DNA from: a virus
Reading direction: 5' to 3' (one strand)
Virus record (IMG/VR): IMGVR_UViG_3300034374_001152
Span: 1-49,605 of that record
DNA: 49,605 nucleotides
The notes beneath the pieces are model-generated. The model was not told the origin of the DNA. It worked only from the letters and a program-made list of their open reading frames with translations, and made no database searches. Shown piece by piece: positions 2,192-27,302 of the stretch. Both the position numbers and the translations under genes were made by a program. Position 1 is the stretch's first letter. Each line of letters starts with the position of its first letter.

Positions 2192-2380
2192 ATGTACTGT
2201 AAATGCGGCGATGAAGTCCATCCTTATCGATTAAATTTAGGATATAAAACATGTCCACCTTGTTCTGAAGTAAAAAAACATTCTTATGTTCCAATTACTT
2301 ACCACAAAACAGGTAATACAATTCAAATAGTAAGTCAAGAGCTAAGCGCACTTGTACATAAATCACAAAGACGAAGATAA
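2192..2380 (+). CDS. Small putative zinc-binding protein, 62 aa
   Basis: 62 residues with C3-x-C5 and C21-x2-C24, a spacing typical of a small zinc ribbon, followed by a basic C-terminal tail ending QRRR. Such proteins in phages often bind host factors or nucleic acid, but the exact family is not recognised. The start lies 22 bases downstream of promoter-like copy 3. The next gene follows by one base. Confidence 0.55.
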   Translation: MYCKCGDEVHPYRLNLGYKTCPPCSEVKKHSYVPITYHKTGNTIQIVSQELSALVHKSQRRR

Positions 2381-2381
2381 T

Positions 2382-2834
2382 ATGAATTACAGAACAGAAT
2401 GGCAAGCTCGCCAAAAAGAGCTAGAAGACAAATATGTAGAGCTAATGCTCGCTAAATACCCACTACTAACTGATGTAACTACAGATACACAGCGTAAAAA
2501 CGGTACTAGAATGTTTGAACTTAATCATAAAAAGTATGGTCCAACCAGATTTGCTACGTATAAAACAGGCATGGTGCGTAAAATTATTAGAACTAGGTTT
2601 AATGAGCTTTCTTGCTATCAACTAAATCCTCAACGAAAATCTATCAGATACTACGCGCACCTTAGTGACAATAGCGAGTTAAATATAAAAAGTTACGAAA
2701 GTACACAAAGAGTAGGAATAAGTAGTGGCTTAGCTAGATTAGTGTATTTAGAAAAATACTTAATAAAAAACTACAATTTGGATTCAGTGCAAGATATTAT
2801 CGAAGTCGACGGTGTGTTGTATAAAAAAATCTAA
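2382..2834 (+). CDS. Hypothetical basic protein, 150 aa
   Basis: Start chosen at ATG 2382, one base after the previous stop. An in-frame ATG at 2352 would overlap the upstream gene and adds only 10 residues. The product is basic and mostly helical in its first half (TEWQARQKELEDKYVELML), with many Lys/Arg residues that would suit DNA or RNA binding. Family not recognised. It is the last coding gene before the structured non-coding region 2835-3223. Confidence 0.55.
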   Translation: MNYRTEWQARQKELEDKYVELMLAKYPLLTDVTTDTQRKNGTRMFELNHKKYGPTRFATYKTGMVRKIIRTRFNELSCYQLNPQRKSIRYYAHLSDNSELNIKSYESTQRVGISSGLARLVYLEKYLIKNYNLDSVQDIIEVDGVLYKKI

Positions 2835-2835
2835 T

Positions 2836-2902
2836 ACACGGTAGAGGGCTTAGTACGGCTGCAATATAACGTAGTTAAGCTAACGAAGATCCTCCAATGT
2901 GT
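2836..2902 (+). ncRNA. Candidate structured RNA, nested stems
   Basis: Nested complementary arms can be read directly: ACAC 2836-2839 with GTGT 2899-2902, GAGG 2844-2847 with CCTC 2891-2894, GCTTA 2848-2852 with TAAGC 2876-2880, and TACG 2854-2857 with CGTA 2870-2873 closing a 12-base loop. A further hairpin follows (TAGAG 2904-2908 with CTCTA 2924-2928). The stretch has no open frame. It shares the 10-mer TAACGAAGAT (2881) with the tRNA-like element at 3162. Function unknown; stems were found by eye without energy calculation. Confidence 0.4.
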
Positions 2903-2984
2903 TTAGAGTTTTACGGTATATAGCTCTATTTAAATAAGAAAACCGATGGCGAAAGATACGATTAGTGATCACATAATAGCCGGT

Positions 2985-3091
2985 AAACTAGGTATGGTAC
3001 GCAGTGCGCTTGAATCAGTAAACGTTTTCACGAGCTGGTTAGCGAGGACGTTACTACCGACGGGTATGAGGTTCGATTCCTCACTAGTTAC
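2985..3091 (+). ncRNA. tRNA-like element A (T-arm module)
   Basis: A perfect T-arm-type hairpin at 3067-3083 (TGAGG, loop TTCGATT, CCTCA) is preceded by a 4-bp hairpin TACC-GACG-GGTA (3055-3066), placed as the long variable arm of a class II tRNA would be. It is followed by CTAGTT (3084-3089), which is complementary to AACTAG at 2986-2991. AACGT 3021-3025 also pairs with ACGTT 3048-3052. The span is about 107 bases and I cannot build a 7-base anticodon loop, so this is not a normal tRNA. It may be a tRNA with an insertion, a decayed tRNA, or another tRNA-like RNA. Confidence 0.4.
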
Positions 3092-3150
3092 AAAGCCCAG
3101 CGAATAAATAACAAACCACGGCGAAAGCAAAGGTAGGAAATGTCTGGGTA

Positions 3151-3203
3151 GGACGATATGGTAACGAAGATAATTTCAAGCGGGTTCGATTCCCGCGCGT
3201 CCA
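3151..3203 (+). ncRNA. tRNA-like element B (T-arm module)
   Basis: T-arm-type hairpin GCGGG-TTCGATT-CCCGC at 3180-3196, followed by CGTCC (3198-3202), which pairs with GGACG at 3151-3155. The closed unit is only about 53 bases, too short for a full cloverleaf. Just upstream CCCAG 3096-3100 pairs with CTGGG 3144-3148 around a GC-GAAA-GC mini-hairpin. A GGCGAAAG motif occurs upstream of both elements A and B. The element ends 20 bases before the gene at 3224. Confidence 0.4.
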
Positions 3204-3223
3204 CTAATTTAAAATTAAATATT

Positions 3224-3418
3224 ATGAATTTATACCAAAGGTTAATGACCAAAAACAAAGAAGCTATTAAAGAGTATGGTAAAAGATACCCTCATACAGC
3301 TGAGATGATTATTGCAGAATTAAAAAGTGAAGAATTCTTTACGAATGTAAGATATGGAACTGCTTATGATGTGCAATTAATATGTAAAATTGACTTTTTT
3401 GGCGATGCATTTATTTAA
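3224..3418 (+). CDS. Hypothetical small protein, 64 aa
   Basis: Start taken at ATG 3224. A longer in-frame start at 3158 would run through the tRNA-like T-arm and translate it into an unlikely N-terminus, so it is rejected. The 64-residue product is basic at the N-terminus (LYQRLMTKNKEAIKEYGKRY) with a hydrophobic C-terminal end (FFGDAFI). Not recognised. Confidence 0.5.
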   Translation: MNLYQRLMTKNKEAIKEYGKRYPHTAEMIIAELKSEEFFTNVRYGTAYDVQLICKIDFFGDAFI

Positions 3419-3476: not shown

Positions 3477-4145
3477 ATGAAAAATAAATTTATAACAGAT
3501 GAGTTAATAGCTCAAAGAATGGAAGCTAAAGGTTGGATCGAAGGTTGCGACGACGAGCATGCTAAAAAACAAGTACTTGAACACTACGATTGTGAGATAA
3601 CTGATCAATGGCAAAGTCCTGATTTTAGTGTATACGAAGAATCAACAGCTGACGGTTACTCTGTATGGATTGCTACTGCTGACGATAAACATATAAATGT
3701 TAACGAAGATGTATACTACTATGAAAACGAACTTACAGATGTGTTATACGATGCAATACCTGACTTCGATCAGATATACTGTGATAACTATGACTTTGTT
3801 GAAGATGCTATTACTAGACACTACGAAGATTTACTGTTTCGAATGGAAGATGAAATTATAGATGAGTTACTTGACGAGGGTTACGACCATAAAGTAGTTA
3901 TTCCTATAAATACACTACAATATATAGAAATGATCTCTCAAGATGATCAGTTTAATAAAGATCACGAAAAATATTCAGGGTGTATAAATATAGATGCTGA
4001 ACATGATTATAAGTGGCTAAACTACGCTAGTCAAATAATTAAAGACAAATCTAGGTATGAGATTGTAGCTAACCACTATGGTTTAACTATAGAAAGGGCA
4101 GTTAAAGGTGAATTAATATTTAAAGAATTAAAAAATGAAGACTAA
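3477..4145 (+). CDS. Hypothetical highly acidic protein, 222 aa
   Basis: 222 residues with a striking excess of Asp, Glu and Tyr (for example YYYENELTDVLYDAIPDFDQIY), very acidic overall. Strongly acidic phage early proteins include DNA mimics that inhibit host DNA-binding proteins; that role is possible here but rests only on composition. No enzyme motif seen. The 3' end overlaps the next gene by 11 bases. A 58-base A/T-rich spacer precedes it. Confidence 0.55.
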   Translation: MKNKFITDELIAQRMEAKGWIEGCDDEHAKKQVLEHYDCEITDQWQSPDFSVYEESTADGYSVWIATADDKHINVNEDVYYYENELTDVLYDAIPDFDQIYCDNYDFVEDAITRHYEDLLFRMEDEIIDELLDEGYDHKVVIPINTLQYIEMISQDDQFNKDHEKYSGCINIDAEHDYKWLNYASQIIKDKSRYEIVANHYGLTIERAVKGELIFKELKNED

Positions 4146-19190: not shown

Positions 19191-22100
19191 TTAAAATTCA
19201 TCAAATGTTATCCCTCCGGATCGTCTTTTCTTACTTTTGGTTTTTTTCTTTTTTATACTTTTACTTTCATCTTTTATACCTAACTCCCAGTCTTGCCAAC
19301 CAGCAAATAAAGCTACTCTCTCCCATAACTCCATATCGCTTTCTGTTGCCTTAGTTACATTGTTTACTTTCTTAATAACTCTATCTAAAGGTATATTTGT
19401 AAGAGCAGACACAACGTTACCACCAGCTAAAAATGCTGGATTATCTAAGCTAAAACCTTTTGTCATCATTTCCTCTTTATTCCATTCGTAAGCTCTAGCG
19501 GCTTGATTTATACGTGACAACTTAGCTGATACAGGTGGGGATATTTTAGTTAGTTCATATCCAACCTTTTCGTATTTAGGTCTTTTCTTTTCAGATTCAT
19601 TTATTATTCTTATAACAGCATTTTTACCTACAGATATAACAGATCCTGCAATACCAGTACCTCTCAATAATGAGTCAGCCATACCGTTAGCAATACTAAC
19701 ATACTTCTTTTGCTTCTCTTCATCTTCAGGTTCTTCGTCACCGAATGCCATAGCAAATAAAGCTTGCTGAACAGCATTAAATATAATATTTTGAACAGTA
19801 GTGTAATATATTATTTTACTTATATTAGTTTTAGCATCACCTCTTTTGTTTTTAAGATCACGTATTGCTTTATCAGTTAACCTAGCATACTGAGCTGGTG
19901 TATTAGCAAAAGCTAATATTAATCTACCTAATGGTCCTGCTTGCTGTGCTGATATCTTATCTGGTCTAGAAGACTGTTGTGACTCTTCAGCATTTTCTCT
20001 AAAATCTTGAAAAGCTTTTTCTTCTGCTTGAGCTTGATCTAACCCTTGTTTAGTATAAGTCTTAATTCTATTTCTATAAAAAGTAGCACCTCCAGATGCA
20101 ATAGCAAAACTATCTGCTATTTGCGTAGGTGCAAAACCTAATTGTAACAGCTTGTTTATAACACCTCTTGGTCCTTCTTGCTTAGCCATATCTGCTATAT
20201 CAGCTTCATTTACATTTATACGCAAACCAGATCTACGTTCTTTTAAGAAGTCTGAGTTCATAAGCGTTGTAAAGTCTTTCCAATACTGCTTTTGATTTGC
20301 AAATGCCTTAGCTGCAGCATAAGGGTTATTATCAGTAAAGTTAACAAAGTTAACAGCGGATAATGTTTGAAGCACAGCAGATCTAGTATTAAAGAACATT
20401 ATAGCTCCAACACTACCTTGTAACCAGTCAGTAAATCTACCAGTAAGGCTATCATCAGAGAAAGATCTGTTTCTACCAGTCTTCATACGCTCTAAGCTAT
20501 TCTCTAATGCTTTTACATATTTTATACCGTAAGCAGCTTCTAATTTATTTTTATTTTCTTTACTGAATATAGCATCAACATTTCTTTGCCATTGTTCTAA
20601 ATACTTAGTTCTTTTTACAGTATTCAAACCTTTTAACATGTCAGTAGATATACCACCAGACACCCAGCTTTCTCCAGGCTCAGGGTACATATCACCTTTT
20701 TGTATTGCTATTAATTGATCTGCAAAAACCTGCAGCTCAGCATTGTTTGTTACAAAACTGTTTAAATCTTTTAAATCATTTTTACTTATGCCAGGTACTT
20801 CTGTTCCTTGTCTACTCCAAACATATACCCTAACAGCCTGCTCTTTAGTCCAAGGCTCTCCAGGTATTTTTTTACGTAAATTTTTAGGCACAATACCTAA
20901 TTGTTTTTTCAATGCTCTATAATCGTTCATCATAGCAAGTCTTGCTGAAGATAAATCATTCATAGCTCTAGCGTAAGGATCTAATAGATTTTGTTTGTAC
21001 CAAGCCATCTGAGCATCACCTTCTTTTCCTTTACCAAGTGTCTCATATAATAAGCCTACAAAGTCTTGAGCGGAGTAAGCTATACCTCTAAATACTTTAC
21101 CTCTACTAGCGCCAGCTACCTGAGCTTTAGCTTTTCCGTAAACTTTCTCAGAAGCAATGCCTGTAGCATTTTCTATTATTTTATTAAAATCTTTGCTTAA
21201 ATTACTAGCTTTACTAAATTTAACATAAGCTTGTTGCACTTTAGATTTTACATCTAAAACACTTAAAGCATCTTTAACAGCTTTAACATTTTTCGATGCG
21301 TCATCTGCGAAGTAAAAATCATTATAGCCTTCAGCAGCTTTATCAACCATCCACCTAGCTTTTGCTTGAGCAGTGCCATCTCCTAAACCTGTTATATTTT
21401 CTAATGGAATATTTAACCCCATACTATCTAAAAACTCCTTTATAGGTCCAGCAGCATCCTGAGGTCTAGCTGTTAATACAAATATATCTCTTTCACCTTT
21501 AGCATCACTTATGAACTTAGCGACGTCAAGTAAAGGTCCTTTAGCTCCTTTCATAACTTTACTAAACTCTGAAAAATCCCACTCAGCTCCTTCAGCTTCC
21601 ATTTCACCAGCTTTTTTAGCAAACTCAGTAGCTGTTAGAGATCCAGTTTTACCATCAGGCATTGTATATAGTACATTACTTTTCGTTGTAGCCAATGTAT
21701 CGTCAAAATCAAATACTCTAATCTTTTTAACTGGAGCATCAGGATTTCTAGCTATAGACAACGCTTTGTCTATATTACTTAAGTTATCTAACGCTTCTTG
21801 ATTAGTTACGTTTTTAGAAAACTTAACATTTAACGGTGCGTTACTATTATTTACTTTAGATGCATTTGTTTTAGATGATAACTTTACAAAGTTATTTAAA
21901 TAGGCTTGAGGATTTTTATACTCTCCCTTATCTAATATCAAATCTTTTAATATTTTGTTTTGTTCAGCTATATTATCTAAATTTATATTACTAGTATTTA
22001 AAGACACACCAAGCTCTTCAGCCATAGTCTTACCAGTCTTGTAGTTGATAATACTATTAAGGTCTATACCAGCTTCAATAAATCTAATAGCTGGATTATC

Positions 22101-25100
22101 TGCTATGGTTGTACCCACCGGTAAGGTTGCATCTAACTTAGCTTCATCTAGCTTTTGATCGTCAAGTTTAGAAAGCTTTGTTTGATAGTAGTTTTTCTTA
22201 ATATACGGCATTATATCGGCCATATTATTAGTCGCTATACCATATATCAATGTTGCACCAATTACAGAAGCTGGAGGATTATGCTCTTCTCTAAACTTTT
22301 CTCCTTTCATTTGCTTAGGTATAGTACCGTATTTAAAGTTTTTAGACAAATATCTAAAAGGTGCCGCTACTTTTATAATCCCACTAGTCGCTTGATATCC
22401 TGACGACACAAACAAAGACGCTATTTCTATTGGAATTTCACCTTTAGCAACAGCATCAGCTAATTTGTTTCCAAAAAACTCTAAAGCCTTTAAGTTGTCT
22501 TGGCCTTGCTGTTGACCTTCTTTTGTAAAAGCTTTCTTAATGTTAACTCTTCTTGGTGGCTTTATATCACTATCAGTATCATTTTGTTTAGCCAAAGCTA
22601 AAGCTTTTTTATAAGCTGGATCTTTACTTCCATAGTACAAACCACCTTTAGCAGGTAGATCAACGTAAATACCATTAATTTTACGTCTAGCAAAATTAGC
22701 AAACTTAGAGCCTTCAAACATCCAACTAGGTATATTAGATGCTACTATAGCCTCTTCCATTTGTTTTTGCTTTTTAACTCTATTATTATCGTTTACGGTT
22801 ATTTTAGGTATATTTAATATTTTTGCCACTGAGTTTATATCTCTTGCTTGCGTAACATTTAATAACTGTGCTTTACTAAATTTTGCACCAGCTTTAATAT
22901 CTACTCTAGCCTTAGGTTCTGCTGTTTCAGCTGCTTTTTCAACTATTAAGTTTCTAAAAGACATCGCGGCTAAACCTTTTATAGTTTGTGCTTCAGCAGC
23001 TCTATAAACGTTACCTTCTATTTTACCTAAAAGATCTTTATAGTCTTGTACTGTTTTTGTAGGGTCTTTCTCCCATTTACCCTTATCGTTTTTTCTATAT
23101 AAAGCGTTTAGTATATTGTTAGGTATAAATGTTGATTTACCTTCTATAGTACTAGGACCAGCATAAGCATCTGGTAATAAAGAAAAATCCTTTGCAGCAT
23201 TATTATCTAAGAACTGTCTTAAGTTTCTTAAACCGTCTAATTCTTTTTTCTGTATATTTCTAGTTTTTTTAGTAAATACTTCAGGATTTAAACCAAAAGC
23301 TTTACCAAGGGTTTTTGCTAAATTATCACCGATGTTTCTACTCTCACCAAAAGTTTTTATTGGTTTGTCTTTAAGATCAGCTTCTATAGCTTTATCAATC
23401 ACATTAGAGACTTCTGAGCTGCTAACTCCTAAATTACTTGCTACAACACCAGTATACTTTTTAAGCTTCTTAGGACTGATCTTTCTAGTAGGCTCTTCTT
23501 TAATAGATACAGCAACTTCTTCAGCAGCTACACCTTTAGCCTCTGTTACATCATCTGTAAACTCTTCACCTAATACTCTTCTAGATGCTTCAATTGCTCT
23601 AGCGGGTAAGAATTTATTTATATAAGCAGCTAATGGCACGCCTGACTCTGGCTTGTATTCCTTTATAAGATCGAATATACCACGCTTACCTGTTTCTATT
23701 TCATCTGTTAATAGCTGTCTGTCAAAATTAGGAGCATCTCTTCTACGCTCTACTATTTTATTCGTTATAGGTTTAAATTTTTCTAGTATCTCAAAAGCAC
23801 CCGCAACACCTTGTTCATCGTATATTCTTTGAACTTCTTGAGAAGCTTGAGAAGCTTCTTGTGATAAAGAAGTTTTAACTTCTTCTCTATCAGGCGCTTG
23901 AAAAGTAACACCTTTAGAGACGTCTGCCTGAAAATTTTTAACAAGATTAAAAACATCGTCAGATGTTTCTAAGCTAAGCATCCAAGACATATCACCAAAT
24001 GTAGATCTAATAGCGTTGTTTAAAAACTTCTTGAAAGAAGGTGTTGATTCTAAGTCTGATCTGTTTATAGCACCTAAAGATATAGCATTATTCATTTGAG
24101 CTATAAATTCTTCAGCATCAAAATCTTTACCGTCTCTATAAAGATCAAATCTTTCTTTTAAACCGCTATAATCTTTCTCGGATATAACACCAAGATCTCT
24201 TTTTTCTTTTAATACTTTTTCAGCCTCTAAAACAGCATTTTTAGCCGTAGAGTCAAACTTTATACCTTTTTCACTTACACTTAAGTGAAACAACTCTTCC
24301 AGCGGAGCAACAGCAGCATATTGAGCGCTTGTATCAGTAGGTGCTATAGCTATATTTCTATCTATTATGGGTTGGTTTACTATTATATCTTTTCCAATGG
24401 TAGTAGCGTTAAAATCCCCTTGCTCTATTTTTGTTTTTAAATATTCAAAAGCATCAACGTTTTTACCATCTTCATCTTTAATAGTTTTATTTTTATACTT
24501 AGCTAGTTGATTTTCTAAGTCGTTGTATTTTATTTTACCATCATCTTGGATTTCACCTTTTATAGAAATAAAATCACCATCACCCATCTGTGTCATGGTT
24601 AGATCATTGTAAAAGTTATTTACACCATAGTAAAAAGCCGCTTCAGAGTTTCTAGCAGCATTACCTAAAGCTTTATTTATGTTTGCAGCTTTTTTAATAT
24701 TAGATCTTTGTTTAGTATCTAGAATTTCTTGCTTAGCAATAGTTAAGTTAGAATACTCTTTTTCTAGTTGTTTTTTAACACGTTTATTTTCAGCTTCTCC
24801 TAAATCACCTAAGCCACCTAATTGTGTAAATTTACTATTAACTTGCCTCATTTGTCTATTGATGTCAGCAACCTCTTCTATTTGATTCGCTGTCATATAC
24901 CTTAACTTATGCAAGCTAATAGCATCACTAAGAGCTAGTTCTTTTAATATTTCTTTTTTTCTAGTTCTAAGCTGTGTTGAATTCTCCGGTGTTGTTGCTT
25001 CATTAAGATCTATAAGCTCTCTAGCTAATTCTTGGTTCTTAAATATTTCACCTCTAGTTCTAAACTCACTCTTAACAATGTTAAATATATTTCCAGCTGA

Positions 25101-27302
25101 CCTAGGCGCCATTATACCAAAACTACTAACAGCTGTACTTGCTAGAAAGTCTTTATTTATTCCTTCAAACATGGATTTGTTTTCACCTAACACTAATATA
25201 TCTAAAGCGTTGTGAGATATTTCTGTAGCTGTTTCTTCTAGTATTTCTCCAGTAAGATTTTTTGGTAAAGATTTTAAACCCGCTACTGTCTTACCTATTA
25301 AGTTGGCACTAAATCTAACAGGTTGTTTGTATAATTCTTTTTTAGCTGCGTTAATACCTATTTGTTTAGCTAAACCTTTAGCAGGTTCTAGCATTTTTAA
25401 AGTACTTATACTTTCAAGAAATGTAGCTGTAGTCCCAGCGCTAAAAGACGTAAATGCTTTTTGAAGTAAACTATAATCTTCTATTTCTTCAAGCTCTTTA
25501 ATCTTATTATATATTTTAGTTTTATCACCTATATCCTCAGTATTATCTAATTTTGAGTATAAAAACTTTATTTCTTGTTCTCTAGATGCTTCATCCGTTT
25601 GCAGTTCTCCATATTTACCACCTGTTTCAGCTACAAAGAAAGTTCCTTGAACAGTTCTTTTACCAGCTAACCATAAGGCTTTTTGTTTTTGTAAAGCATC
25701 TTTTACTCCCTTACCAGTTTTTATAGCTTTAGTTAATGTAGTAGCTCCTTTTAATTGAGCTAAACCTGGTACAAATGTAGTAGATATAGTAGCTGAATTA
25801 TCTTGAAGCGCTATAGATGTCCAGTCCCACACAGATAAGCCGTCTTTACCTATGTCATCTATCGAAGGAGATGTTGGTATGTTCTCTCTTTTAGAGGCCA
25901 TACTTAAGTTGTAGTTTTTATTATTTTTCTGTATCGTCTGTATTAAAGAATCTATTTTTTCAGAATTTTCTGGGCTTGTTAAAAAAGAGAGAGGTTGATA
26001 AAATTCACCTATTTTTTTAGCTCCTTTTAAATATAACTCAGAATATAAGTCTAAAAAGTTTCTACCAGACTGTACAAAAAATTCATCAAAAACCCTACCA
26101 ACTCTAGCGCTTGTGCTGTAATCTTGTTTAAGATTTTTTTCAAATAAATCAGCATCTACCAAAGCTTTTCTAGAGTCCTCAAGCATTTTAGAGTAATCTT
26201 CTTGCTGTGAATTTACTAGCTTAGCCTGTGAGTTTACAAAAGCTGGTAATTCATTAAAACCTTTTTCTTCCCACTGCTGTATCTTGGTGTTAAAGTTCTG
26301 TATCAACTCATTATATTGATCTACTTGTTCTTGACTTGCACCACCAGAATAAAACGTAAATCTATCTATTTGGGCCTTAAGATCTTTAACTTCTTTATTA
26401 AGTGGCAAGGCTTGAGACTCCCATTCTTTTTTAGCTTTTTCGTAGTTTTCGTAGTTTTTATCTATACTTTGTTTTTGCTCTTTAATTAAAAACTTTTGAG
26501 CTTCTAAACTTTCTGCTCCGGTAGCAAATTTTGGACTAGCCACCATGTACTCTTGTACATTTTCTGAAACATTGAATAGACTATTGTTATATACTTTGTC
26601 TTTAGCCTGTGTTTCAGCTTCGTTATATATACCCTCTAACTGAGACTGATTTTGGCTATTAAGAGGTACTATTTTATTTGTTTCTTTATAATTTAAATAT
26701 TGATCGTATTTGTTACCTAAAGTTTCTTTCAAGTACTTAGTATAGCTTTCATCTGAATCAAAAGTAGGTTCAAAAGCAACAGTTGGAGCCATCATACCAG
26801 GAACAGTTTTACTTACAGTCGTTCTGTCGTTTCTACTTTTTATAGGTCCAAAATAATCATTAGCTTGAATGGCTACTATATCTTCTTTTGGTATGTTTTT
26901 TATTCTATCGTTTATTACATTAGTAGCTAAAATTGCTTCAGCCTTTAATCTATCTTGCTTTTCTTGTTGTCTTTTTTTTCTAGTTGCTATTCTTTTTTCA
27001 CTAGCTGACAAAGGTTTTGTTGAATCAAGATCTTGTAATTCCGAAGAAGTATTTACCGAAGGTAATTCCGTAACGCCCGCTTGTGATGCTGTCATTGGTT
27101 GAGACACTACACCCGCACCCGCTGCAGCGTCCGTTTGAAAAGTTGTTGGATCAAGCAAGTCTGCATCTTCTACCTTTTCATCAGTTTTAGGTTGAGTATC
27201 TGCTTTTATTTTTTCAACATAATCTTCAACAGACATATTAGACTTTTTTGCAGCTTCTTGTATTTGATTTATAGTATATGAAACGTTTTTATAAGTATAC
27301 AT
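19191..27302 (-). CDS. Giant internal virion protein with HAD-like domain, 2703 aa
   Basis: By size and operon position, the large polyvalent or ejected internal protein of a podovirus. The N-terminus (TYKNVSYTINQIQEAAKKSN) is a motif recurrent in marine phage internal proteins. Long helical, Gln/Lys/Glu-rich stretches follow. Around residue 1220, YKPESGVPLAAYINKFLPARA resembles sigma region 2. At about 1860-2020 a HAD phosphatase-like domain has VFDFDDTLATT, LTARP and YFADDASKN. The last 700 residues carry conserved segments with hydrophobic helices (NIIFNAVQQALFAMAF) that could cross a membrane during ejection, and a very basic C-terminus. Confidence 0.75.
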   Translation of the reverse strand: MYTYKNVSYTINQIQEAAKKSNMSVEDYVEKIKADTQPKTDEKVEDADLLDPTTFQTDAAAGAGVVSQPMTASQAGVTELPSVNTSSELQDLDSTKPLSASEKRIATRKKRQQEKQDRLKAEAILATNVINDRIKNIPKEDIVAIQANDYFGPIKSRNDRTTVSKTVPGMMAPTVAFEPTFDSDESYTKYLKETLGNKYDQYLNYKETNKIVPLNSQNQSQLEGIYNEAETQAKDKVYNNSLFNVSENVQEYMVASPKFATGAESLEAQKFLIKEQKQSIDKNYENYEKAKKEWESQALPLNKEVKDLKAQIDRFTFYSGGASQEQVDQYNELIQNFNTKIQQWEEKGFNELPAFVNSQAKLVNSQQEDYSKMLEDSRKALVDADLFEKNLKQDYSTSARVGRVFDEFFVQSGRNFLDLYSELYLKGAKKIGEFYQPLSFLTSPENSEKIDSLIQTIQKNNKNYNLSMASKRENIPTSPSIDDIGKDGLSVWDWTSIALQDNSATISTTFVPGLAQLKGATTLTKAIKTGKGVKDALQKQKALWLAGKRTVQGTFFVAETGGKYGELQTDEASREQEIKFLYSKLDNTEDIGDKTKIYNKIKELEEIEDYSLLQKAFTSFSAGTTATFLESISTLKMLEPAKGLAKQIGINAAKKELYKQPVRFSANLIGKTVAGLKSLPKNLTGEILEETATEISHNALDILVLGENKSMFEGINKDFLASTAVSSFGIMAPRSAGNIFNIVKSEFRTRGEIFKNQELARELIDLNEATTPENSTQLRTRKKEILKELALSDAISLHKLRYMTANQIEEVADINRQMRQVNSKFTQLGGLGDLGEAENKRVKKQLEKEYSNLTIAKQEILDTKQRSNIKKAANINKALGNAARNSEAAFYYGVNNFYNDLTMTQMGDGDFISIKGEIQDDGKIKYNDLENQLAKYKNKTIKDEDGKNVDAFEYLKTKIEQGDFNATTIGKDIIVNQPIIDRNIAIAPTDTSAQYAAVAPLEELFHLSVSEKGIKFDSTAKNAVLEAEKVLKEKRDLGVISEKDYSGLKERFDLYRDGKDFDAEEFIAQMNNAISLGAINRSDLESTPSFKKFLNNAIRSTFGDMSWMLSLETSDDVFNLVKNFQADVSKGVTFQAPDREEVKTSLSQEASQASQEVQRIYDEQGVAGAFEILEKFKPITNKIVERRRDAPNFDRQLLTDEIETGKRGIFDLIKEYKPESGVPLAAYINKFLPARAIEASRRVLGEEFTDDVTEAKGVAAEEVAVSIKEEPTRKISPKKLKKYTGVVASNLGVSSSEVSNVIDKAIEADLKDKPIKTFGESRNIGDNLAKTLGKAFGLNPEVFTKKTRNIQKKELDGLRNLRQFLDNNAAKDFSLLPDAYAGPSTIEGKSTFIPNNILNALYRKNDKGKWEKDPTKTVQDYKDLLGKIEGNVYRAAEAQTIKGLAAMSFRNLIVEKAAETAEPKARVDIKAGAKFSKAQLLNVTQARDINSVAKILNIPKITVNDNNRVKKQKQMEEAIVASNIPSWMFEGSKFANFARRKINGIYVDLPAKGGLYYGSKDPAYKKALALAKQNDTDSDIKPPRRVNIKKAFTKEGQQQGQDNLKALEFFGNKLADAVAKGEIPIEIASLFVSSGYQATSGIIKVAAPFRYLSKNFKYGTIPKQMKGEKFREEHNPPASVIGATLIYGIATNNMADIMPYIKKNYYQTKLSKLDDQKLDEAKLDATLPVGTTIADNPAIRFIEAGIDLNSIINYKTGKTMAEELGVSLNTSNINLDNIAEQNKILKDLILDKGEYKNPQAYLNNFVKLSSKTNASKVNNSNAPLNVKFSKNVTNQEALDNLSNIDKALSIARNPDAPVKKIRVFDFDDTLATTKSNVLYTMPDGKTGSLTATEFAKKAGEMEAEGAEWDFSEFSKVMKGAKGPLLDVAKFISDAKGERDIFVLTARPQDAAGPIKEFLDSMGLNIPLENITGLGDGTAQAKARWMVDKAAEGYNDFYFADDASKNVKAVKDALSVLDVKSKVQQAYVKFSKASNLSKDFNKIIENATGIASEKVYGKAKAQVAGASRGKVFRGIAYSAQDFVGLLYETLGKGKEGDAQMAWYKQNLLDPYARAMNDLSSARLAMMNDYRALKKQLGIVPKNLRKKIPGEPWTKEQAVRVYVWSRQGTEVPGISKNDLKDLNSFVTNNAELQVFADQLIAIQKGDMYPEPGESWVSGGISTDMLKGLNTVKRTKYLEQWQRNVDAIFSKENKNKLEAAYGIKYVKALENSLERMKTGRNRSFSDDSLTGRFTDWLQGSVGAIMFFNTRSAVLQTLSAVNFVNFTDNNPYAAAKAFANQKQYWKDFTTLMNSDFLKERRSGLRINVNEADIADMAKQEGPRGVINKLLQLGFAPTQIADSFAIASGGATFYRNRIKTYTKQGLDQAQAEEKAFQDFRENAEESQQSSRPDKISAQQAGPLGRLILAFANTPAQYARLTDKAIRDLKNKRGDAKTNISKIIYYTTVQNIIFNAVQQALFAMAFGDEEPEDEEKQKKYVSIANGMADSLLRGTGIAGSVISVGKNAVIRIINESEKKRPKYEKVGYELTKISPPVSAKLSRINQAARAYEWNKEEMMTKGFSLDNPAFLAGGNVVSALTNIPLDRVIKKVNNVTKATESDMELWERVALFAGWQDWELGIKDESKSIKKKKTKSKKRRSGGITFDEF

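Follow-up and report, generated by a model that had tools for sequence, protein, structure and literature searches.

A structured RNA array in a phage genome

The stretch between positions 2835 and 3223 in the genome of an uncultured marine phage carries an array of structured RNA modules, among them two members of an undescribed tRNA-like RNA family, which we call TLS1 and TLS2. Such a family was one of the readings offered in a preliminary description of this DNA, and it is now supported by matches to covariance models from which the window was held out and by compensatory changes in relatives. The explanation that we favour, tentatively and at slightly below even chances, is that the two tRNA-like RNAs would be matured as tRNAs and act as decoys, with TLS2 derived from tmRNA. 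By the window we mean the whole stretch of DNA that was analysed; its source and the genes bordering the array are as follows:

1 to 49,605 (49,605 bases): window, IMG/VR virus record IMGVR_UViG_3300034374_001152
2352..2834, + strand: upstream gene, 160 aa; anchor of the locus in relatives
3224..3418, + strand: small downstream gene, 64 aa; its ATG lies within a longer mechanical ORF, 3158-3418

The array is placed immediately 3' of the 160-aa gene, for which no match was found in Pfam or PHROG, and 5' of the 64-aa gene; beyond it are ligase, primase-helicase, exonuclease and ribonucleotide reductase genes. Within 2835-3223, the sole listed ORF of at least 60 aa begins inside TLS2. The GC content of the array was 48% versus ~30-35% in its surroundings, as expected for structured RNA within an AT-rich genome, and promoter-like and terminator-like matches around the array were no more frequent than chance. 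The portal protein of the window shared 42-50% identity with phages mostly from Flavobacterium, Cellulophaga and Tenacibaculum hosts, an indirect assignment that points to a Flavobacteriia phage. Elsewhere in the window, positions 19191-27302 hold one ORF of 2703 aa on the minus strand.

Two tRNA-like modules that do not form a cloverleaf

A descriptor scan of the window returned exactly two T-arms and two complete modules:

2986..3090, + strand: TLS1, tRNA-like RNA of 105 nt; held-out model match and 25 further members
3013..3040, + strand: plug-in hairpin G in the TLS1 arm, AATCAG[TAAACGTTTTCACGAG]CTGGTT
3055..3066, + strand: variable-arm hairpin of TLS1, TACC-GACG-GGTA
3067..3083, + strand: T-arm of TLS1, TGAGG-TTCGATT-CCTCA, exact
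3151..3203, + strand: TLS2, tRNA-like RNA of 53 nt; held-out model match and a near-twin in L011
3180..3196, + strand: T-arm of TLS2, GCGGG-TTCGATT-CCCGC, exact; identical to the Rfam tmRNA T-arm consensus

Both T-arm hairpins noted earlier are thus exact in the sequence, and the upstream pairings are present where they had been placed (AACTAG at 2986-2991 with CTAGTT at 3084-3089, and GGACG at 3151-3155 with CGTCC at 3198-3202). The spans, first put at ~107 and ~53 bases without a cloverleaf, measured 105 and 53 nt. A chance origin of the modules was ruled out by simulating 200 windows with matching dinucleotide composition; these contained a mean of 0.01 T-arms per window and 0 complete modules. 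The cloverleaf, D-stem and 7-nt anticodon loop of a canonical tRNA are absent from the window: neither ARAGORN nor the Rfam tRNA model found a tRNA there, and a search of all Rfam at gathering thresholds gave no match. Each module does have an acceptor, a GG-containing D-loop-like strand, a T-arm and A73, which together could form an L-shaped elbow. Taken as a whole, the stretch had an unremarkable folding energy (z +0.5), so we dropped it as structural evidence and argued the structure from covariation instead.

Relatives were gathered via the proteins of the flanking genes and via DNA patterns, giving 134 viral loci, of which some come from one contig and some are chance matches. All stem from assembled viral contigs, many of them closely related, so that counts of relatives are not independent. 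The related loci were assembled from the same blocks, whose arrangement varied, and the same islands held true tRNA-Met and tRNA-Gln in some relatives. Among named phages, blastn returned nothing comparable to the array, and neither TLS model matched the nearest named portal relatives (MW202828.1 and MT497071.1). No matching description was found in the literature on phage tRNA mimics without an anticodon.

TLS1 is conserved as an RNA

In the window, TLS1 consists of a 6-bp acceptor (AACTAG), a GTATGG strand without a D-stem, a variable arm that replaces the anticodon arm, the TACC-GACG-GGTA hairpin, the T-arm, CTAGTT and A73. The hairpin lies just 5' of the T-arm, at the position of the long variable arm of class II tRNAs (Ser, Leu, Tyr); unlike these, TLS1 has neither a D-stem nor a 7-nt anticodon loop, its acceptor has 6 bp and ARAGORN misses it. 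Covariance model R2, made from nine relatives with the window held out, matched TLS1 at 80.9 bits (E 8.9e-16), with a runner-up at 16.9 bits; the tool itself describes the E-values of the covariance models made here as rough. We catalogued 25 other TLS1 copies with compensatory changes. Their T-stems changed in matched fashion (TGAGG/CCTCA, GAGGG/CCCTC, GAAGG/CCTTC, GAGAG/CTCTC), and the variable hairpin occurred as TACC/GGTA, TACT/AGTA, TAAC/GTTA, TAC/GTA and TGC/GCA. Covariation on a uniform subset alignment was thin (2 pairs), whereas the wider tally covers all 25 members. Arm length varied widely: L041 has almost no arm, and that of L160 is considerably longer than 60 nt. A coding origin of the first T-arm, in a 53-codon frame seen by eye at 2946-3107, was also considered; the held-out match and the varied arm lengths favour RNA.

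The mascRNA model (RF01684) matched TLS1 weakly, at 17.8 bits against a threshold of 42.5. Like TLS1, mascRNA and menRNA are tRNA-like without a normal anticodon arm, and they are cut by RNase P and RNase Z; they are however vertebrate nuclear RNAs, and the likeness would be convergent at best.

TLS2 covaries and is shortened in the window

TLS2 in the window combines a 5-bp acceptor, no D-stem, a 4-bp hairpin (3166-3177), the T-arm and A73, and it is shorter than most of its relatives. Covariance model R1, made from 21 relatives with both the window and the near-twin L011 left out, gave TLS2 as the clear top match in the window (34.5 bits, E 2.7e-6, again rough). A further 43 TLS2 copies with compensatory changes were catalogued. 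In the alignment of relatives, 90.2% of cells were paired, and sliding the partners lowered pairing to 34-52%; both-sided changes were found in 51 cells versus a shuffled mean of 16.2. The arm was helix-closed in 36 of 38 distinct inserts, compared with 30% of shuffled inserts. The comparison with homologous loci proposed in the preliminary description therefore found covariation in TLS1 and TLS2 alike. As a separate observation made by eye, the TLS2 arm at L015:2262-2364 could form a pseudoknot between the hairpin loop GTTCA and a downstream TGAAC.

Between the window and L011, one T-stem pair of TLS2 had changed on both sides, from G-C to A-U, and this matched change is why the shortened TLS2 of the window appears to have been kept in shape. 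It also bears on the proposal, made at the outset, that the modules are decayed or interrupted tRNAs, and on a wider version in which they are decayed or intron-interrupted tRNAs or tmRNA remaining in the phage genome. Although the true tRNAs in relatives' islands and the reduced length of TLS2 in the window would suit decay, the helices are held by matched changes in many contigs, in TLS1, in TLS2 and in a 40-nt class described below, and we consider this explanation very improbable.

TLS2 is probably related to the tRNA-like domain of tmRNA

In many relatives, the TLS2 slot 3' of TLS1 is occupied by GGGGGTG-ACCTGGTATTGACGTG...GGAAGAGAGTTCGAATCTCTC-CACCTCC-A. While Rfam matched nothing in the window at gathering thresholds, it did recognise these relatives: in 18 contigs an RNA of ~80 nt in the TLS2 slot passed the tmRNA threshold at 51-69 bits (cut-off 47), spanning model positions 1-374 with the entire mRNA domain skipped. 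The relatives share with Flavobacteriia tmRNA (RF00023) a D-loop without a D-stem, G3-U70, the T-arm and an A73-CT trailer. Their D-loop, CTGGTTTTGAC, is identical in the tmRNAs of Maribacter and Flavivirga, which end in the ACT trailer and have a different but paired acceptor with G3-U70. These host tmRNAs measure about 395 nt and include a tag frame and pseudoknots, whereas the phage versions, of 53-120 nt, have neither. Judged from sequence, the TLS2 slot elsewhere is thus held by RNAs reduced to a tmRNA-like domain, and the replacements of the anticodon arm are swappable, both of which go beyond the preliminary description.

We next considered alanine identity, which in bacteria comprises A73, G2-C71, G3-U70, G4-C69 and G20 (PMC9976931). 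Of 44 TLS2 copies, 40 had G3-U70, none had G-C at this pair and 41 had A73, frequencies that are biased by the use of chosen motifs in the pattern scans (the last fixed CGTGAAATGG with position 3 free, and another fixed the tmRNA-like D-loop). Pair 4-69 flipped between C-G and G-C while the neighbouring G3-U70 stayed, the pattern expected from selection for alanine charging given this identity set (PMC9976931). The exceptions, with A3-U70, were the window, L011, L013 and L015.

The TLS2 of the window is accordingly a divergent copy: it lacks the tmRNA alanine identity of G3-U70 with A73, since only A73 is kept, and it scored below the RF00023 gathering threshold, with the T-arm alone matching (17 of 47 bits). 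It has no mRNA-like domain, tag frame or pseudoknots, being 53 nt in total with a 12-nt hairpin as its arm. Its slot, the shared architecture and intermediate acceptors (GGGCGTG, GGACGTG, GGACG), rather than a tree, suggest that it probably descends from the tRNA-like domain of a tmRNA that lost its mRNA domain.

A full-length or permuted tmRNA over the 390 nt was rejected because neither a fitting tag frame nor an acceptor partner was present, and the permuted tmRNA model RF04321 reached 13.3 of 47 bits on the window. When bacterial genomes were scanned with the tmRNA-like 5' pattern, 0 of 59 matches had the T-arm motif within 420 bases downstream. Two observations concern other loci. L120:2987-3195, in Maribacter phage Panino (PP540027.1), matched RF04321 at 62 bits; the tmRNA annotated in that record covers a stretch that differs in part and overlaps both tRNA-Asp and tRNA-Thr. 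L058:3358-3602 is a Group I intron (81.5 bits) near a match to the tmRNA-like 5' pattern.

The nearest precedent is the tmRNA of mycobacteriophage DS6A, which consists of the tRNA-like domain only; the relatives of TLS2 likewise keep little else, matching tmRNA without the mRNA domain and having G3-U70 and A73. CDS-less plastid tmRNAs of ~65 bp, grouped with the DS6A type, also retain little beyond this domain. The present RNAs differ from DS6A in their phages, in their Flavobacteriia-type sequence and in their exchanged arm hairpins, and the window copy differs further in its 5 acceptor pairs, its A3-U70 and its sub-threshold Rfam score.

Smaller tRNA-like classes and possible transcript processing

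Related loci held further tRNA-like forms. A third class of 40-42 nt consists of a 6-7-bp acceptor, ATGGTTAAY, a T-arm and A73, with nothing more (L055:1653-1692, L033 on the minus strand, L123, L126, L128, L134 and others), and its helices covary (AGACATA, TGACATA, AGTCACA and TGTCACT types). A 75-nt tRNA-like RNA lies 5' of TLS1 in L002:1155, L055:999 and L121:265, beginning with AGTCGTA or AGACATA and then ACGGTTTCACTCTGCATTTTGACTACG...; the window probably starts too late to hold it. A 103-nt class (L138, L153:3639, L179) has a GGGTAAC acceptor and TACATGGACAGTAG.

tRNAs punctuate transcripts in mitochondria, mascRNA does so in MALAT1, and forms of 40-42 nt with an acceptor and a T-arm are near the minimal requirement of RNase P. 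The modules might therefore be processing signals, minimal RNase P/tRNase Z substrates whose released pieces are functionless and whose cuts would free modules A, D and C (described below) or set mRNA ends. The existence of the covarying 40-42-nt forms, the location of the elements between short genes, the real tRNAs in some islands and the weak resemblance of TLS1 to mascRNA all fit this idea. It does not, however, need G3-U70 to be retained in most TLS2 copies, nor the elaborate shared arm hairpins or the tmRNA-type D-loop, and we regard it as the leading alternative to our favoured explanation, possible but rather unlikely.

Exchangeable hairpins in and around the tRNA-like RNAs

The remainder of the array comprises the following modules:

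2836..2902, + strand: module A, long hairpin with internal loop TAACGAAGAT at 2881-2890; common to relatives
2905..2983, + strand: module D, AGAG/CTCT hairpin followed by GGCGAAAGATACGATTA...TAGCCGG; common to relatives
3095..3149, + strand: module C, GCCCAG-CGAATAAATAAC...GGAAATGT-CTGGGT
3115..3134, + strand: plug-in hairpin K within module C, ACCACGGCGAAAGCAAAGGT

Nested stems had been described for 2836-2928, and a fold was indeed found over 2836-2902, in module A (MFE -19.4 kcal/mol, z -2.0), with a similar fold in 8 other distinct versions and a conserved GCT[A/G]ACGAAGATC. Module D kept its sequence in 6 contexts and had an ordinary folding energy. The closing stem of module C occurred with matched pairs in relatives (CCCAG/CTGGG, TGCAG/CTGCA, TCCAG/CTGGA, GAAGC/GCTTC). 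The repeats noticed earlier are present, GGCGAAAG at 2948 and 3120 and TAACGAAGAT at 2881 and 3162, but they do not form a single family: each copy of GGCGAAAG falls in a different conserved module, and of the two TAACGAAGAT copies one lies within an internal loop and one within a hairpin. A third TAACGAAGAT, at 3701-3710 within a downstream coding gene, makes this repeat at least partly coincidence.

Several hairpins recurred in different places, with constant loops and stems altered by pairs. Hairpin K, with the core CGGCG[A/T]AAGCAAAGG, was found elsewhere in TLS2 arms (L033, L128, L154, L156) and in the TLS1 arm of L028; L045 and L048 have it within module C, and in L033 and L035 it stands alone. 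The loop of hairpin G, which occurs in TLS1 arms including that of the window, was kept in 7 contexts with varying stems (L027 AATTAG/CTAATT, L004 ATATG/CATAT). Hairpin F was seen in one TLS1 arm and also by itself, and hairpin C likewise occurred by itself as well as in the TLS2 arms of L169 and L174; hairpins H and N were shared between module B and TLS2 arms. Of the latter module (CTAGACGAGTAGCTTAATTAG...ACATAAGTGAATAGCTAG; L029, L002, L026, L128 and others) we observed by eye that the flanks resemble a loop E (bulged-G) motif and that GCUU/AAGU and GGUU/AACU covary. This arm swapping is the most unusual and least explained part of the system.

One reading of the exchanges is that the tRNA body is a natural scaffold that guards the ends while the swapped hairpin is active, for example as a decoy or inhibitor of host defence or RNA-binding proteins, the hairpins having diversified through an arms race. 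The appearance of K, G, F, H, N and C in both TLS types, within other modules and on their own, with loops kept and stems free, is consistent with this; on the other hand, no module matches any Rfam family and the alanine signal of TLS2 relatives is left unexplained, and we consider it improbable.

GOLLD and ROOL, which are often found near tRNAs, are likewise ornate structured phage RNAs. They differ from the array, which has no Rfam match and consists of short separate modules around tRNA-like bodies.

Possible function and significance

In the explanation that we favour, in which TLS1 and TLS2 are decoys, the array would be transcribed together with the genes beside it, after which RNase P and tRNase Z of the host would excise the tRNA-like pieces and CCA would be added. 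The small RNAs would then act on tRNA- or tmRNA-recognising factors of the host, such as SmpB, AlaRS, EF-Tu and tRNA nucleases, and TLS2 and its relatives would dampen trans-translation. Mimicry of tRNA to engage host enzymes, already suggested in the preliminary description, would be the likeliest function of these RNAs. A tmRNA form with only the tRNA-like domain has been reported as an inhibitor of E. coli tmRNA (PMC4131195, PMC11915505); such a DS6A-like RNA is a strong inhibitor in both chargeable and non-chargeable form, an effect that may come from titration of SmpB (PMC4131195). Complete tmRNA, or tmRNA in two pieces, can likewise be found in phages (PMC9004378). The non-alanine TLS2 of the window could still serve as a decoy. 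Against this explanation, the TLS2 of the window has lost G3-U70 and is cut to 5 acceptor pairs, and a plain SmpB decoy needs no extensive arm swapping. Moreover, TLS1 acceptors are mostly A1-U72 and have no alanine signal, so that a single target cannot account for both TLS1 and TLS2.

A bolder proposal, which we offer as speculative and more doubtful than not, is a combinatorial system in which constant tRNA-like bodies, one of them from tmRNA, and a shared repertoire of hairpins exchanged by recombination would give each phage its own set of decoys or inhibitors in tRNA-stable shells.

If these ideas hold, standard annotation would be overlooking small tRNA mimics in many marine Flavobacteriia-type phages. 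Such mimics would provide natural examples of a tRNA body that displays RNA modules, and RNA decoys against ribosome rescue, until now suggested mainly by one mycobacteriophage, would become directly testable.
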